Position numbers and translations under genes: made by a program. A DNA stretch of 64,000 bases from Methanomethylovorans hollandica DSM 15978. GTDB taxonomy: Archaea; Halobacteriota; Methanosarcinia; Methanosarcinales; Methanosarcinaceae. This document shows, in pieces, positions 10,989 to 30,056 of this stretch. Where the stretch lies: the NCBI RefSeq assembly GCF_000328665.1, contig NC_019972.1, positions 186,001 to 250,000 on the forward strand, in the 5' to 3' direction. Within the stretch, counting starts at the first letter, position 1; each line of letters starts with the position of its first letter. The notes under the pieces are model-generated. The model saw nothing but the letters and a program-made list of their open reading frames with translations, ran no database searches and had not been told where the DNA came from.

Positions 10989-11591
10989 TTATATATATTG
11001 AGCAACGTACTTGACGATATTGTCATTGAAATAATAGGATGTCGTAGAGATACCAAGTATTTTGAGATCAATGGCTAATAATGGTTCATCTACGTTGCAA
11101 ATATCATTTACAAGGAACATTCCGGATACCTTATTATCAAATATTTTAGCTGCAACAAGTTCTAATTGCTCATCAGTTAATGGAGGTACTTCATCAAAGC
11201 AATGTTTACTGCAAATCGTTTTCAAAGCGTTCAATATCCCTGGAGAATCTACTATGTACAGCTTACAGAAGTGTTCATGGCCTTGAAGGATAAAGTAGGA
11301 TCCTCCATTGCAAAAACCTTCTTTAGAGCTAATTATCTTGTTCCCATAAGATTTCTTTTCAAAATGCAAATAAGGATTTAGTTGAGTAGAACTTGATGAG
11401 TTCAATAAATGATCTGGAACTCCGGTATAATAGGCTTTGATCACTTTACCGCATTCGGGACACACATATCCGCTTATCAATGGAAATTCATGAATTTCAG
11501 TATCAGAGGTAGCATTCTCTTTTGATGGTTTATCGGACAGATCATGGAATAAAAGAAAGAGATTTCTTTCTTTATCTATGGTTATAGTCAT
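10989..11591 (-). CDS. Unknown protein with a CxxC zinc-like motif
   Basis: The 200-residue product is cytosolic in appearance. A YVCPECGKVIKAYY motif near residues 42-55 could be half of a zinc site, with further Cys/His pairs (GHEHFCK, CSKHC) around residues 104-135 that may complete it. No family is recognised. Its ATG overlaps the stop of the HD-domain gene by 4 bp (11588-11591), so the two are translationally coupled and probably work in one process. A T-run on the minus strand follows the stop. Confidence 0.6.
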   Translation of the reverse strand: MTITIDKERNLFLLFHDLSDKPSKENATSDTEIHEFPLISGYVCPECGKVIKAYYTGVPDHLLNSSSSTQLNPYLHFEKKSYGNKIISSKEGFCNGGSYFILQGHEHFCKLYIVDSPGILNALKTICSKHCFDEVPPLTDEQLELVAAKIFDNKVSGMFLVNDICNVDEPLLAIDLKILGISTTSYYFNDNIVKYVAQYI

Positions 11592-17459: not shown

Positions 17460-18116
17460 TTATGAAAACCAGTTCAAGAGCATAATGGAATCTAGTGGTA
17501 CATTGTATTTTTCTTTGATTACCTTAATGGTTTCTCTGGTCTGAATTTTATTGATGTAGTCTTTGTATTCGAGTAGGTGTTCCATGATAGGAATAGCACT
17601 TAAGTCTCCGACTTGTGCAAGGGATATTAATGCAGCAGGTACTTCGAAGACTCCTCTGTGCAATGCATGTATCAAGATCCTTGTAGCTCTGTTATCTCCT
17701 AAATGACCAACGGTTTTTATGATCTCTATTCTCACATCATGATAACCCGATATTACAGTTTCATGGTATAGATCAAGCAAAATCGAAAGAAATTCAGGAT
17801 TTTTTATGGTCCCAATTGCTCTCACTGCTAAGAGTTGTGTTACGTATGATGGACTGGAAAGAGCATATCGAATAGCCTGATAAGTCGCTTTTGTTGAATT
17901 TTCAGGAGTTGCTAATTTGCAGATATATACCAGAGCTGTGTCAATCGATGAAGGGAATATTTGTTGTTTGTTGTTTGAGAGTCTTTCTAGGACAAAGGAT
18001 TCTAGTTTCCTTATATCATTTTCAGCGAAAGCTTTTTTCAAGATACTATTATGATATTCAGCTTCAGTAATTGATAGAGAATTACTATTGTCAGTAGCGA
18101 ATAATGTCGTTTGCAT
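17460..18116 (-). CDS. HEAT-like repeat protein
   Basis: The start was set at 18116 (MQTTLFATDN) because AAAGGGTA precedes it; an in-frame ATG at 18167 is less well supported. The 218-residue product is a helical-repeat protein. ALSSPSYVTQLLAVRAIGTI, HDVRIEIIKTVGHLGDNRAT and FEVPAALISLAQVGDLSAIP mark successive HEAT-like units with the typical buried Val/Arg/Ala pattern. Such proteins are binding scaffolds. The N-terminal QTTLF resembles the start of a PIP box but lacks the final aromatic residue. It lies 24 bp after the gene at 18192. Confidence 0.65.
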   Translation of the reverse strand: MQTTLFATDNSNSLSITEAEYHNSILKKAFAENDIRKLESFVLERLSNNKQQIFPSSIDTALVYICKLATPENSTKATYQAIRYALSSPSYVTQLLAVRAIGTIKNPEFLSILLDLYHETVISGYHDVRIEIIKTVGHLGDNRATRILIHALHRGVFEVPAALISLAQVGDLSAIPIMEHLLEYKDYINKIQTRETIKVIKEKYNVPLDSIMLLNWFS

Positions 18117-18191
18117 TACCCTTTTCTCTCCTTGATGATTTATGTTATTTCTTCGATTCTGACTCATTTTTCTAAGATTGCTATCTTTTCA

Positions 18192-18731
18192 TCAAGACTT
18201 TTTTCTGTTGTTTATCTGAAACTCATATTTGTTCAGGTCACTTTCTAAAACTTCATCATCGGGGATGTTATTATTGTTGTTTTTTAGTTCAATCTTCATG
18301 TATTTTAATAGTTCTTGTCGATGATTATCGATAACATGTAGGTCAAGATCATCCCATATGTAGTCTTCTTCCCAACAATCAACAAATTCATAACAATCTA
18401 GGCCTTTCTTAGTAACCAATTGAACTATAATAGAGCCCCAACCATATTTGTGTTCACATATTATACCGAAGTCTCTGGATTTGATTTCCTTTACTTCTTC
18501 TTTTGTTAGAGGAATTCCATTAATTTCAATTCCAGAGATATCATTATCGGTGATGTATAAATCGTTGTCATTGGATTCGCATTTCCATACATGCCCTGTT
18601 AATTCTTCAATGGTGTTTTTGATAGCATCTTTGAGGTCGAGGCCATCTTGTGCTTGTGTTATTTGTAACGCGAATATGAGTGATACTTCATGATTTCGGC
18701 TACCATCATCTATAATTGATGTTATTGTCAT
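18192..18731 (-). CDS. Unknown acidic protein
   Basis: The 179-residue product is soluble and acidic. A central region of possible beta strands (NDNDLYITDNDISGIEINGI, then CEHKYGWGSIIVQLVTKKGL) is followed by an Asp/Trp-rich segment and an Asn-rich helical tail. No family or catalytic motif is recognised. A GAGG ribosome site precedes the ATG with an A-rich tract before it. It sits between the methyltransferase-helicase gene and the HEAT-like gene on one strand, so all three may be cotranscribed. Confidence 0.5.
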   Translation of the reverse strand: MTITSIIDDGSRNHEVSLIFALQITQAQDGLDLKDAIKNTIEELTGHVWKCESNDNDLYITDNDISGIEINGIPLTKEEVKEIKSRDFGIICEHKYGWGSIIVQLVTKKGLDCYEFVDCWEEDYIWDDLDLHVIDNHRQELLKYMKIELKNNNNNIPDDEVLESDLNKYEFQINNRKKS

Positions 18732-18767: not shown

Positions 18768-21700
18768 TTATAGTAAACCTTCTTCTGTAAGCATCTTATA
18801 ACTGAAATCCTTATAAGAAAGCCAATTATCCGGATTGAATTCGCTTACTTTTTTTTCATCTATTGCCTGATCGATTCCGTTGGCCTTTAGATCACATAAT
18901 TGTTTCATGTATTCATCTATTGTTCCTTCTAAAAGGACAAAATGGATATTAGGCTCTTTCTTTTGTTGAGGTCTCAGTATCCTTGAGTATGCTTGTCTTG
19001 TTTTTGATGGAGTCCAGTTAACATCGACAACGATTACAGTAGACGCTTCCGGGATGTTAAGTGCAGTTTCTCCACATGTTGTAGTTGCAAGCATTACATT
19101 AATATCAGGAGATGTCTGGAATTTTTCCTTGTCTGTTATTCTCTTGTCAATTGATATTTCTCCAGTGAAGAGAATTGAATTTATTTGTTCCTGATTTAAT
19201 ATCCGGTGCATGTAACTAAGGAATTCTGGTCTTTCAGAGAATACGATTATTTTTTCTCCGTTATTAATAGCATTCCTAATCAGTTCAATTGTTTTTATTT
19301 GCTTTTGGGTTGAATCATGATTCCATTCAAATCCTGGAATATCAGTTTTACTGCTTTGTGGAATTGTAGATGCAAACTGGAGTTTAGTGAGATGAGAAAT
19401 TACAATAGCATTGCTAATGTTATGGCTTGAATCATATTTCATTATTTCAAGCTGTTCTCTGAACCATTTTGCATAGTTTTCCAGCCATTTTTTGTAGTAT
19501 AACAAGTGGTCAGTATCTGGTTTTATCAAGTGGTTATGAAATACAGGTGTTGGACATTTCATGTATGGTTTGACTTCTGGTTCGTTTGTTACCCTGCGGA
19601 TCATCTTTGGTGCAAGCATTTTATACCATTCATTAATATCTTTGACCATTGGTACTTCCATGGACCTCATGCCTTTGTCGAGTGTTTGAGCAAACTGTTC
19701 AGATACCCATGTAGTCTTGATGAACGTTTCATTAAATTTGCGAGTTCCTGAAGTAAATTGATAGCCTTCATCGACAGGGTAACGATATCCGTATGGATTA
19801 AGTTCTGTGCCATCGCCCCATGCTGCTACCAGCAACGAGAAAATGTTTCTGGGATAATTATTAATTATCGTTCCAGTGGCTTCTATAATTCTCTTGCATC
19901 TTCCGAACATTTGTCTGGCTGCAAGAGAGCGATTTGAATCGGCTGCTTTGAGATTATGTGCTTCGTCAAATGCCACGAATTTGATCTTTTTCTTCAGGAC
20001 TTTAATATACGGTTTTTTCAGTCCGTCGATTTTTGTCCATAATTTATTATATGAGATAATATTGAATTGTTTTAGGTTATCTAATTCTTTTCTGGAATCG
20101 ATTACGTTTACGTTTTTAATTCCTAAGTTATTAAATTCGGTGAGGAATTCTTTGATGTTTCTTGATTCTACAACTATCAGAGCATGTTCATGTCCAGATA
20201 ATATAATTGATGCAATTATACATCGGGTTTTTCCAACACCCATATCACCTGTATACATTACACCGGATTTCATGCACATTCTGATAACATCGTCTTTTTG
20301 ATATGGCCACAACCAATCGATACCAAGCTTATCGAGTTTCTTGTGAAGCTCTTCATACTTTGCAGCATATTTGGTTCTGATACCATTTTCAGAGTATTTG
20401 TTAATCCAGATTCCTTTATCTTCATCATATACCGCTTTTTCAAAAGGAGTCATTTCGAGTTCTTTTCTTTGAGTAATTTTCTTGTACCAGTTGAATACCT
20501 GATCATCGAAAACAACATCCAATCCCTTTCTTTCAAGATGTTCTTTCATCTGCATTATGGTATCCAGACCATCGTTAACAATGTTCATTCTCCTGCAGTT
20601 CCATTGCCATATCGAGAAATTTGTTTGGTTTCCGCGATTGTATTTCTTTCCGTATGAATCAATGGCTTCCTGCAGTTTTAATGCTGACAGCATGTCTTTT
20701 GCAGAGAAAACTAGTCCAGAGCTATTTGCATTGACAGATATACGAATTTTTTTTGCATATTCAAGTGATAAAGTTGGTTTGGAAGGTACAGATATTGACT
20801 CTATTTCTGCATGTGGTTGAAGATCGAGATCATATAATGGATATTCATTTGCAGTATCTATTTTTTCCAGTAATTTTTTGTATCCCTCGGAGTTTTTCCA
20901 TATCTCGATTTTTTCCGGGAGCTGTTCCATTGTTTCTACGGTGAGATGCATTGTTTCTAGTTTGTTGTACCAGTAGTCGTATGGAATATAGACTACAAGA
21001 GAACAATTCCATTCTGTTCCGTATTCTTTGAATGCTTCAGAGGGTAGATCGATTCTAAGCAATTTTTTGTGCTGGATAGATGCCCATTTTTCAAATGAAT
21101 ATGTACTTGAATTTGTAAAGAAAGATGTTGGAAGAATTGCTCCAACTACTGTTCTTGATGATTCAAGAGCAATTTCAAGAGCTGCAATATGAGATTCAAT
21201 TGACGATCTCGGACCAAGTTTCCCCCAATTTGCGTTTATTAATGGGATATTTTTCTTTTCTATTTGTAGTGAGAAAGGGGGATTGATTATGAAAGCATCA
21301 ACCATTGTTCTTTCTTTTGATGTTAGCAGGTATCTGTCGTTTTCTGGAATTGCTCCATGCTTAAAAGATGTATGATTGATAAGGTTATCATTGATTATTG
21401 TATCATTTGGCCAGATGTATTTAGCAATTGAAAATGCGTTATTATCGAGTTCAATTCCATATAATCTATTGTTATTTGGTATGAACTGGAACATGGATCC
21501 TATTCCCATGGAATTGTCCATGATAGTAAGATTCTTTGCTCTATCAAGTCCCATAGATTCAGTAAGAGCCTTTACAACAACTGCAGGAGTAAAGAACTGG
21601 CCTTTGTTAAGCTCCCTTTTCTTATGCATGTCAGGAAGCCCACGGGAACCTTCCAGTTTAACAGTAAGTCCAAGAGGTTTATACTTATGGAGTGCATATT

Positions 21701-21881
21701 CCCTGGTAAGTGTACGGGATTCCTGCATCTCGAAGATCCTGTAGTTTGGATCGTCTGGACTAATTGTTCTTAATATTGATTTTATTTCTTCAGTTATTGG
21801 TTCTGGAATAAGATCGGACTTTGGGAGAATAGGGTTTGAACTGATCTGATCGAGAAATTCGATTAATGTAGTTTGTAACAA
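18768..21881 (-). CDS. DNA adenine methyltransferase-like / SNF2-type helicase fusion, TTG start
   Basis: The 1,037-residue protein joins two modules. The N-terminal part (about 85-330) is a class I methyltransferase of the N6-adenine type: KGQFFTPAVVVKAL, IMDNSMGIGSMFQF (AdoMet loop), LYGIELDNNAF and FIINPPFS (the [DNS]PP[YF] motif). The C-terminal part (about 530-1000) is a superfamily 2 helicase: GDMGVGKTRCIIA (Walker A), FVAFDEAHNLK (DEAH), EATGTI, and a second RecA fold with IVFSERP and QAYSRILRPQQ. The start is TTG at 21881, preceded by AGAGGTG. The N-terminal LQTTLIEFL is a PIP-box-like peptide. Phage anti-restriction proteins such as DarB join the same two activities. Confidence 0.8.
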   Translation of the reverse strand: MLQTTLIEFLDQISSNPILPKSDLIPEPITEEIKSILRTISPDDPNYRIFEMQESRTLTREYALHKYKPLGLTVKLEGSRGLPDMHKKRELNKGQFFTPAVVVKALTESMGLDRAKNLTIMDNSMGIGSMFQFIPNNNRLYGIELDNNAFSIAKYIWPNDTIINDNLINHTSFKHGAIPENDRYLLTSKERTMVDAFIINPPFSLQIEKKNIPLINANWGKLGPRSSIESHIAALEIALESSRTVVGAILPTSFFTNSSTYSFEKWASIQHKKLLRIDLPSEAFKEYGTEWNCSLVVYIPYDYWYNKLETMHLTVETMEQLPEKIEIWKNSEGYKKLLEKIDTANEYPLYDLDLQPHAEIESISVPSKPTLSLEYAKKIRISVNANSSGLVFSAKDMLSALKLQEAIDSYGKKYNRGNQTNFSIWQWNCRRMNIVNDGLDTIMQMKEHLERKGLDVVFDDQVFNWYKKITQRKELEMTPFEKAVYDEDKGIWINKYSENGIRTKYAAKYEELHKKLDKLGIDWLWPYQKDDVIRMCMKSGVMYTGDMGVGKTRCIIASIILSGHEHALIVVESRNIKEFLTEFNNLGIKNVNVIDSRKELDNLKQFNIISYNKLWTKIDGLKKPYIKVLKKKIKFVAFDEAHNLKAADSNRSLAARQMFGRCKRIIEATGTIINNYPRNIFSLLVAAWGDGTELNPYGYRYPVDEGYQFTSGTRKFNETFIKTTWVSEQFAQTLDKGMRSMEVPMVKDINEWYKMLAPKMIRRVTNEPEVKPYMKCPTPVFHNHLIKPDTDHLLYYKKWLENYAKWFREQLEIMKYDSSHNISNAIVISHLTKLQFASTIPQSSKTDIPGFEWNHDSTQKQIKTIELIRNAINNGEKIIVFSERPEFLSYMHRILNQEQINSILFTGEISIDKRITDKEKFQTSPDINVMLATTTCGETALNIPEASTVIVVDVNWTPSKTRQAYSRILRPQQKKEPNIHFVLLEGTIDEYMKQLCDLKANGIDQAIDEKKVSEFNPDNWLSYKDFSYKMLTEEGLL

Positions 21882-21910
21882 GTATCACACCTCTTAGATA
21901 CAAAAAATAG

Positions 21911-21976: not shown

Positions 21977-24085
21977 ATGGTGGTAGATCAGGAAGAAATC
22001 CATAGGTTGAGTTTGAGTAAAGATGTAAATGATAGACTTATAGCTTTTAGATTATTTAGGGATCACTTTGAATCATTACCCGACAAGTCATCCGCATGGA
22101 TTGATTTGTATAGATTGACACAGGATAAGAATTCGATTGTAAAAAATAATGCTCCAAATGCTCTTGGTTATGCTTTCGAACATGTTCCTGACAAGTTTGT
22201 TGCATGGACTGATCTACATCATCTAACACGCAATGATGATAAGGATGTTAGAAAGAATGCTGCTTCTACCCTTGGTTATGCTTTTAAACACATTCCTTTG
22301 GAGTTCAAATCTGCTGCTTGGAATGACCTGCATAAGCTGACAAAAAATAAGCATTGGATGGTTAGAATGAATGCTGCTTTAGGTCTTGGTTATTCTTTTG
22401 AGTACATTCCTGAGGAGTTTAAGTCTGCTGCTTGGTTAGATTTACAAAGATTAACAAATGATAAAGATCTTGATGTTAGACAATATGCTGTTAATGCACT
22501 TGGTTATGCCTTTGAATATATTCCTGATAAGTCCATTGCTTGGTCTAATCTCCAGACACTAACAAGTAATGATAATTTGTATCTTAGAAGTCGGGCTACT
22601 TCTGCTCTTGGTCATGCATTTAAGTATGTTCCAAATAGGTCTGTTGCATGGTTCGAATTGCATAGGCTAGTATGTGATGATAATTCATATGTTAGAAGCG
22701 TTGCTGCTAGTAGCCTTGGTTATGTTTTTAAGTACATTCCTGAAGAATTAAAGTCCGAAGCTTGTTCTGATTTACATAAACTAACATATGATGAAGAATT
22801 AAACGTTAGAAGTAATGCCGCTTCGGTTATTGGTTCTGCTTTTTCTTATATTCCTGAAGAATACAAGTCTACAATGTGGTTTGATTTACATAGACTAACA
22901 AATGATAAATATTCAGATGCGAAAATGTATGCAAATCATTCCCTGGGTAAGATATGTATTTATAAAGCATCTAAATCAGAAATCGAATATGAGTCACGTA
23001 CTTTGTTTGAAGAAGCGATTCGATATTTTGAAACTGCTACAAATGAACGTAGTTATTCAAATCCTGCAAAGTTTTGTAATCATTTCTATCGTTCTTTTGA
23101 TGTAGTTTTGTTTAAAAAAAATAACTCAAAGAACAATATTGAGAAATATATTACAGCTGCAAAAAAGGAAATTGAAGGATCTAAAAGTAAAGAAAATCTC
23201 ATCAAAGCAATTGAACAGTTAGCTGAGGCTCTTGAAATGGCACACCATGCTCATGAATCTGGTAATGATTGGCAAGAAACACTAAAACATTGCTCAGATA
23301 TCTGTAATCGTGCTGACCAATTAATGTTAGAGAACAAAGATAATATACCTGCTATATTCGACATATACGAGAAAAACAAACCATCCTTTAGGAAAAACAT
23401 CAAAGAACTCATAGATGAAGTCAAAGAGAAAGCAGAGATAACCTGCAAGGAAACACAAGGTACTCCTGCTGAAGGTGTTGCTTGTTCTATTAACAAGGAA
23501 ATACAAAAATGGAAAATTGAAAGTCAGGAAGATATCGAAAAGAGTTTCTATAATCTAATCGATATGATGAAGATTATGATACCTGACATCCCTAAAAATC
23601 AGTTACTACTCTCAAAAGTTAATTCTATGGAAAATTATACAAAACCAGAGGATGTGTTTGAAGCTCTAGGTATGATATTTCCATTGATCAAAAACATGAG
23701 TCTATCTGAAGATATAAACTATATCAAATCAACAGTAGATGAAATAAAAGTTGATGTAAAACAAGTAGATACGAAAATCGATAATCTGAGTATTAATGTC
23801 GAGCAAGTGACGAAACAGATAATGGAACAGCCAAATTCACAAGAATATCTTGATCTGATCCAACAGAGATTAGAAAATATTCAAGATAAAATTCCTGAAA
23901 TGAAGGATGAGATTAAAGATGTACTTGATGAATTGTATTCTCCTCTTGGAATAGAGAGAAAACTAAAAATTTCCATCCCATTAATTCCATTGTTCATGTC
24001 ATATGAAGCTCAAGTAACTCCTTCTAAGTTTGTAGTTGATCGGATTTTTGAATTTAAGCAGCTTTACAGTAAATTAATAATATGA
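21977..24085 (+). CDS. HEAT-repeat protein with coiled-coil tail, paralogue 1
   Basis: The 702-residue product has eight tandem units of 36-38 residues (about residues 35-325) with the pattern IP..FKSAAW.DLHRLTND....VR..AA..LGYAF.Y. Paired helices of this kind make a HEAT-like solenoid. A conserved linker follows (NPAKFCNHFYRSFDVVLFKK, about 365) and then long charged helices predicted to form coiled coils to the end. It is paralogous to the gene at 32025, which has five units. It is on the plus strand inside a minus-strand block. Function is unknown; the solenoid suggests a binding platform. Confidence 0.75.
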   Translation: MVVDQEEIHRLSLSKDVNDRLIAFRLFRDHFESLPDKSSAWIDLYRLTQDKNSIVKNNAPNALGYAFEHVPDKFVAWTDLHHLTRNDDKDVRKNAASTLGYAFKHIPLEFKSAAWNDLHKLTKNKHWMVRMNAALGLGYSFEYIPEEFKSAAWLDLQRLTNDKDLDVRQYAVNALGYAFEYIPDKSIAWSNLQTLTSNDNLYLRSRATSALGHAFKYVPNRSVAWFELHRLVCDDNSYVRSVAASSLGYVFKYIPEELKSEACSDLHKLTYDEELNVRSNAASVIGSAFSYIPEEYKSTMWFDLHRLTNDKYSDAKMYANHSLGKICIYKASKSEIEYESRTLFEEAIRYFETATNERSYSNPAKFCNHFYRSFDVVLFKKNNSKNNIEKYITAAKKEIEGSKSKENLIKAIEQLAEALEMAHHAHESGNDWQETLKHCSDICNRADQLMLENKDNIPAIFDIYEKNKPSFRKNIKELIDEVKEKAEITCKETQGTPAEGVACSINKEIQKWKIESQEDIEKSFYNLIDMMKIMIPDIPKNQLLLSKVNSMENYTKPEDVFEALGMIFPLIKNMSLSEDINYIKSTVDEIKVDVKQVDTKIDNLSINVEQVTKQIMEQPNSQEYLDLIQQRLENIQDKIPEMKDEIKDVLDELYSPLGIERKLKISIPLIPLFMSYEAQVTPSKFVVDRIFEFKQLYSKLII

Positions 24086-28769: not shown

Positions 28770-30056
28770 TCATAGACAATCTAATATTGCATCTCCCAGA
28801 GATAAGTCTTCTTTCTTTTCTTGAGTTTTTATGTCCATTTTATCAGTTGTTTTTGGAGATGATCTCTTTGATGGTATGGATTTCTTACTCTTTGTTGTCC
28901 TTACTGTCTGTTTCGGCTGTTCGAGCAAGGATCTCATTAGCAGACCTTCTGAAGCGTCTAAGAGAGCATCGATTTCCGGAGTTCTGTTCTGATGCAAGGA
29001 ACGAATGTTCTCGATTTCTCTTTTAATTGCATTAATTGATTTCCCATTGATTTTTCCATCTTTGTCATGTGATTTTTTCACTGTGTTGCTTAATGATGAT
29101 ACAATCTTTTCAAGTTGAGCTTTCAAATTCTCGTTTAGCTGAGATACTATCTGTTCGGTCTTTGTTTGTATCACCTGATCTACGATTTCAGGTGATAGTT
29201 TAGATTCTCCTAGTGATGTATCAATGAAGAAAGTTAGAATTTCTATCTTGTTTTGGAGAGAATCATAGTTATTTATTGGCTGAAACTTGCTTATACCAAG
29301 TCTTGCTGCATTTGAATTGATTTTATCCTTATGTTCCCATATTGTATCAATTACATTCTTTACAGAATACTTGTTGTCCCTTCCAATACCTTCTTCTTTG
29401 ACATTTTCAAATACCTTCATTACAGCTACCAGATTATGTTCTGGAATGAATCTGATGTTGGCGAATATTTTAACACCGAGTTTATCCAATTCTCGATCTA
29501 TTGCATTTCTCAGTCTCCCTGGAAGTCCTCTTATTTCTTTTGGTAAAGCAATTGTAATTCTCTCTACGAAATCATTTTCATTTTCTCTGATGGTACCGAA
29601 AGTAGAACCACTGATAGAGTAACTTAAAAGGAGACCTGCAGGAACACTGACAATTCCCATGTTACGGGTATCTTTTATTTCTTTCATTGTGTCCAGTCTT
29701 TCAATAATTGCCTGGATAGCTTCGTCGTTTGTTTTTCCATCAATTAATTCATGGTTAGCTTTTATTGAATCGATTGCATTTTTCCTTTTGGATGGCGCAT
29801 TGTTTTCAGGTACTGGATCTTCATCTTGAATTGTTGGAGTCTCCGGTACTTCATTGGATATGTCTTCTGAATCATTGGTTTCAGTTACTGTGGTAGATTC
29901 GGCTGTAAGAGAATTCTCATTATTAATCGGATTTCCAATGATCATCTTAATGTCTGTACTAATATTGTTTTCAGGAACCAATGGCATATCCACCGTTTGG
30001 GGAAATACATTTGTTTGGTCTCCTGACTCGAAGAAATCTAAAACTAATTGTTGCAT
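28770..30056 (-). CDS. Unknown protein with N-terminal PIP box
   Basis: The 428-residue product begins MQQLVLDFFESGDQ, a good match to the PCNA-interacting peptide Q-x-x-L-x-F-F. A low-complexity acidic linker (about 15-100) leads to a folded core (about 105-260), then helical and possibly coiled-coil segments (about 280-370) and a basic Ser/Lys tail (TKSKKSIPSKRSS). No enzyme motif is seen. It lies 29 bp upstream of the MoxR-like AAA gene and should be cotranscribed with it. A clamp-tethered adaptor or AAA substrate is a reasonable guess, no more. GAGGTG precedes the ATG. Confidence 0.6.
   Translation of the reverse strand: MQQLVLDFFESGDQTNVFPQTVDMPLVPENNISTDIKMIIGNPINNENSLTAESTTVTETNDSEDISNEVPETPTIQDEDPVPENNAPSKRKNAIDSIKANHELIDGKTNDEAIQAIIERLDTMKEIKDTRNMGIVSVPAGLLLSYSISGSTFGTIRENENDFVERITIALPKEIRGLPGRLRNAIDRELDKLGVKIFANIRFIPEHNLVAVMKVFENVKEEGIGRDNKYSVKNVIDTIWEHKDKINSNAARLGISKFQPINNYDSLQNKIEILTFFIDTSLGESKLSPEIVDQVIQTKTEQIVSQLNENLKAQLEKIVSSLSNTVKKSHDKDGKINGKSINAIKREIENIRSLHQNRTPEIDALLDASEGLLMRSLLEQPKQTVRTTKSKKSIPSKRSSPKTTDKMDIKTQEKKEDLSLGDAILDCL

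Follow-up and report, generated by a model that had tools for sequence, protein, structure and literature searches.

What does a plasmid do with a protein that carries an adenine methyltransferase (MTase) and an SNF2-type translocase in one polypeptide chain? The question is raised by a gene in a 64,000-nucleotide stretch of Methanomethylovorans hollandica DSM 15978 (the window), which comprises bases 186001-250000 of a 285,109-bp replicon in a two-replicon genome. The partner replicon is a chromosome of 2,428,904 bp (2.43 Mb) that bears 16S rRNA genes, and the window's replicon is almost certainly the published M. hollandica plasmid, since a 285,109-bp plasmid of this strain is cited in PMC9674854. 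The gene, its motifs and its surroundings are located as follows.

18768..21881, minus strand: MTase-SNF2 fusion protein, 1037 aa, TTG start (ORF, Pfam, orthologues); N-terminal peptide MLQTTLIEFLDQ
21888..21894, minus strand: Shine-Dalgarno-like AGAGGTG, 6-base spacer to the TTG (read from the sequence)
21852..21875, minus strand: PIP-like motif QTTLIEFL, residues 3-10 (10/10 archaeal orthologues; host FEN1 comparison)
20982..21614, minus strand: gamma-class N6-adenine MTase domain, about residues 90-300 (Pfam N6_Mtase; model fold matches)
21585..21599, minus strand: QFFTP, the TP motif of gamma-class MTases, residues 95-99 (Q95 and T98 invariant; PMC5512222)
21489..21518, minus strand: motif I DNSMGIGSMF (AdoMet loop), residues 122-131 (D122 and G126 invariant in 16 homologues)
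21273..21284, minus strand: motif IV NPPF, residues 200-203 (15/16 homologues; NPAF in Aeromonas L045)
18846..20315, minus strand: SNF2-type two-lobe ATPase, about residues 523-1012 (Pfam; PDB fold matches)
20226..20249, minus strand: Walker A GDMGVGKT, residues 545-552 (alignment; point of intein-like insertion, GK^T, in two relatives)
19956..19967, minus strand: Walker B DEAH, residues 639-642 (alignment)
18972..18995, minus strand: motif VI QAYSRILR, residues 963-970 (Q963, R967 and R970 invariant)
17460-18167: HEAT-repeat protein (adjacent ORF)
18192-18731: protein without matches (adjacent ORF)
21977-24085: HEAT-type protein, weak matches (adjacent ORF)
10989..11591, minus strand: homologue of a 182-361-aa family (HMM match 5.7e-11; synteny)

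The first-pass annotation had read the locus as a single polypeptide with an adenine-MTase core (NPPF) and an SNF2-type translocase (GDMGVGKT, DEAH), started by a TTG codon, and this reading is borne out by the ORF, by Pfam and by the invariance of the motifs. N6_Mtase matches residues 90-212 with 28.2 bits against a cut-off of 20.4, while SNF2-rel_dom (residues 530-684) and Helicase_C (866-971) both exceed their own cut-offs. The TTG start is backed by the AGAGGTG element six bases upstream as well as by the orthologues, in which the conserved N-terminal motif lines up with this position. In agreement with the same annotation, no nuclease domain was detected by the Pfam scan of the fusion protein, nor was any found in the scanned adjacent ORFs; small ORFs nearby yield at most sub-threshold zinc-ribbon matches.

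The MTase half displays the gamma-class N6-adenine DNA MTase motifs QFFTP, DNSMGIG and NPPF, in agreement with the features, including the TP motif, listed for this class by Iyer et al. (PMC5512222). When 16 homologues from archaea and bacteria are aligned, all keep T98 in the TP motif, D122 and G126 in motif I, and N200, P201 and F203 in NPPF, whose P202 is replaced in the Aeromonas protein. The SNF2 translocase half, with its Walker A and B motifs, motif VI arginines and SNF2 fold, retains G550-K551, D639-E640, Q963, R967 and R970 throughout the same alignment. Both enzyme halves keep all diagnostic residues in archaeal orthologues only 42-45% identical over their full length. Structure models are of uneven quality: the ATPase half gives PDB fold matches to SNF2 ATPases with E-values down to 7.5e-22, whereas most of the MTase domain has pLDDT values below 50 in the full-length AlphaFold model, and a model of residues 22-520 is poor as well (mean pLDDT 50). 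The top PDB matches of this low-confidence model are mostly adenine MTases, including HsdM-type enzymes, M.BseCI, CamA and BrxX, and only support the predicted enzyme class. In two relatives the Walker A motif is interrupted at the identical GK^T point by intein-like insertions, one of about 460 aa (C...HN|T) in Methanoperedens G050 (L028:10195-14772) and one of about 340 aa (A...HN|T) in an IMG/VR contig (L079:7670-11563).

At the very N-terminus, QTTLIEFL fits the pattern Qxx[hydrophobic]xxF and resembles the C-terminus of the host FEN1, QRTLDQWF. A lone terminal match to the PIP pattern has little weight, as three are found among the 53 ORFs of the window. The pattern is, however, matched by the tails of all ten archaeal orthologues, namely MLQTTLIEFL, MATQLTLALF, MAIQTTWDTF, MAVQLTWDAF, MAMQTTLDTF, MAIQLTWDTF, MTGQLTLGLF, MALQLTFERF, MAGQLTLGLF and MKQTLLPEFI, and M1, Q3, T5 and F9 are the sole invariant positions of the archaeal alignment before residue 45. 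Shuffled tails gave at most two matches in ten over 20,000 trials; since the ten tails are kin, they do not count as ten independent events but point to selection acting on a short motif. The clamp-binding (PIP) N-terminus proposed in the first-pass annotation is strengthened by this conservation beyond what could be known from a single sequence, and binding is predicted. Against a PCNA tether speaks that the second aromatic residue of the canonical PIP box (position 8) is missing in 10/10 tails, where L, E, S, T or I is found instead. Within the genome, PCNA is matched only on the chromosome, and the clamp would therefore be that of the host. Elsewhere in the window, a 428-aa protein of unknown function (28770-30056, minus strand) starts with MQQLVLDFF, a canonical-looking PIP box at its extreme N-terminus, and represents a second candidate clamp-binding protein of the plasmid.

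The same fusion, for which a search in other archaeal elements had been suggested, is present in nine Methanoperedens genomes. Its N-terminal half gives a strong match in ten of 238 genomes of the class, these being M. hollandica and the nine Methanoperedens, which all belong to a single genus of a different family and of which one is identified as Candidatus Methanoperedens; full-length orthology in Methanoperedens was confirmed, and two genome contig scans returned one close orthologue. According to PMC9674854, published in 2022, ORF5 of the Methanoperedens HMp plasmids is a helicase that has an N-6 methylase at its N-terminus and is suggested there to methylate nascent DNA at the fork. ORF5 of HMp_v1 shares the architecture of the fusion, and some of the orthologues have RadC and ThiF nearby, as described for ORF5; the Methanoperedens orthologues probably correspond to HMp ORF5. 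The fusion shares a contig with RadC in four genomes and lies alongside ThiF on four Methanoperedens contigs. These ThiF proteins score 36-46 bits against the PRTRC ThiF profile, compared to 17-21 bits for the chromosomal-type ThiF of such genomes, and the ThiF of the Methanoperedens plasmids is accordingly closest to PRTRC ThiF. Contrary to the HMp ORF5 setting in that text, RadC and ThiF were sought and not found on the M. hollandica plasmid; the 285-kb plasmid likewise gave zero matches to PRTRC protein profiles and none above cut-off to Prok_Ub. At several Methanoperedens loci, the gene after the fusion belongs to the family represented at 10989..11591. Two TnpB-like (OrfB_IS605/Cas12f1-like TNB) genes are also located on the plasmid (40776-41939 and 60557-61777, both minus strand).

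Beyond the archaea, colinear homologues of about 1040 aa are borne by bacterial megaplasmids, 24-27% identical over the whole length and annotated as SNF2-related protein or DEAD-DEAH helicase, e.g. on C. necator pHG1. They share the MTase-SNF2 arrangement of the archaeal fusion but have no robust counterpart of its PIP-like tail, and they are often PRTRC-linked. An N-terminal motif for the bacterial beta clamp (MQRDLFSF, MQRELFTF) was considered and rejected, being restricted to a few Burkholderiales. As the bacterial homologues do without the tail, clamp tethering is not needed for the basic job of the family. In 8/13 bacterial plasmids examined, a small sample chosen mostly from the best matches, the fusion homologue has a PRTRC cassette within about 10 kb. 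PRTRC-type ThiF occurs in 386 of 72,556 plasmid records, a background of all plasmid records and not of megaplasmids alone. In a tree, the archaeal proteins together with two viral-contig relatives are split from the bacterial ones with full support, the viral branches being long. In most of the bacterial plasmids (L043, L044, L054-L058), the fusion is directly preceded by a gene whose 235-296-aa product has no known function; only some copies of this protein are recognisably alike. The Aeromonas homologue with NPAF for NPPF (L045:11932-15000) is located near a gene for a 1577-aa strawberry-notch-type protein. It is conceivable, if rather doubtful, that a scanning adenine methylase and ThiF (E1-like) form a cross-domain megaplasmid maintenance module, clamp-tethered only in archaea, by means of which large plasmids would re-mark their DNA behind each fork and keep it distinct from the host chromosome.

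For the M. hollandica protein itself, we put at about even chances that it is a PCNA-tethered plasmid maintenance enzyme, a translocating methylase giving replicated plasmid DNA an element-specific adenine mark. The fusion would be held on host PCNA via its N-terminal PIP box, and its ATPase, a predicted SNF2-type translocase of double-stranded DNA, would carry the methylase processively along new plasmid DNA, either behind the fork or where PCNA is loaded. The resulting element-specific mark would protect the plasmid from host type I restriction systems or label it as self. The host chromosome harbors four strong HsdM-type MTase genes, which makes restriction pressure plausible and a protective mark useful. 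A replication-coupled role is favored by the plasmid's own Orc1/Cdc6, PolB and primase-like genes, next to which it encodes a Hel308-like helicase, a DHH-family protein and an ScpA-like protein. Furthermore, nascent-DNA methylation was proposed independently for HMp ORF5, an idea to which the conserved PIP-like tail lends a physical basis, and element-specific methylation differing from that of the host has been reported for Borgs (PMC11208441).

Methylation may nevertheless be dispensable, as three distant viral-contig relatives (L079, L081, L082) retain the SNF2 ATPase yet are devoid of the TP motif, motif I and NPPF. Together with the NPAF variant of Aeromonas and the proximity of some Methanoperedens orthologues to RadC and ThiF, these proteins leave some room for a less probable reading in which the translocase comes first, remodelling stalled forks or stripping proteins while tethered to PCNA, with the MTase as a DNA-binding or regulatory relic. 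In all eight aligned archaeal orthologues, however, T98, the motif I glycines and NPPF are invariant, which would be unexpected for a relic. Among the IMG/VR contigs, L080 likewise keeps the ATPase without the MTase motifs, as do L079, L081 and L082.

The plasmid maintenance enzyme has also to be weighed against an anti-restriction protein acting only once, on DNA just arrived in a recipient cell. The comparison with P1 DarB, to which the first-pass annotation had pointed, holds as an analogy. DarB, on a mobile element as well, places the MTase before the SNF2 helicase, and so does the methylase-helicase dyad of polyvalent proteins (PMC5512222). However, a profile of 18 homologues of the fusion matches DarB with 12 bits in colinear fragments only, and DarB is a 2255-aa, virion-packaged protein that acts from inside the virion, compared to 1037 aa for the fusion. 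DarB is thus probably a distant analogue only. Some homologues do reside on conjugative or mobilizable plasmids, in two cases with Lar-type restriction-alleviation genes close by, but other homologue plasmids are typed non-mobilizable and the PIP tail suggests steady coupling to replication; action at transfer is therefore regarded as unlikely.

Type ISP enzymes such as LlaBIII also combine an MTase and an ATP-driven translocase in one chain. Their domain order is nuclease-ATPase-MTase-target domain, whereas the fusion has its MTase in front of the ATPase, and its chain was found to contain no nuclease domain. That the fusion serves as the modifying part of a defence system whose nuclease comes from elsewhere is quite improbable, since its weak matches to the SNF2 subunits of Zorya, DISARM, Dpd and BREX cover the generic ATPase only, no nuclease was found in the adjacent ORFs scanned on the M. 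hollandica plasmid, and the homologues examined do not share any one type of nuclease as a direct neighbor.

The real family of the fusion is a megaplasmid family that unites the HMp ORF5 type with the often PRTRC-linked bacterial plasmid proteins. The MTase-helicase fusion and the idea of methylation at the fork are already known from PMC9674854. The accessible text of that paper mentions no PIP motif for ORF5, and the conserved PIP-like tail and the tie to the PRTRC cassette appear not to be described in the literature searched. The PRTRC link also provides a clue to the role of a plasmid cassette that is widespread but poorly understood. As the plasmid appears to belong to a cultured methanogen, methylation calling on native reads can test the marking directly. 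If the tail binds PCNA, a plasmid-encoded DNA methylase would be physically coupled to the sliding clamp of its host, a simple means by which the element could restore its mark in each round of replication.
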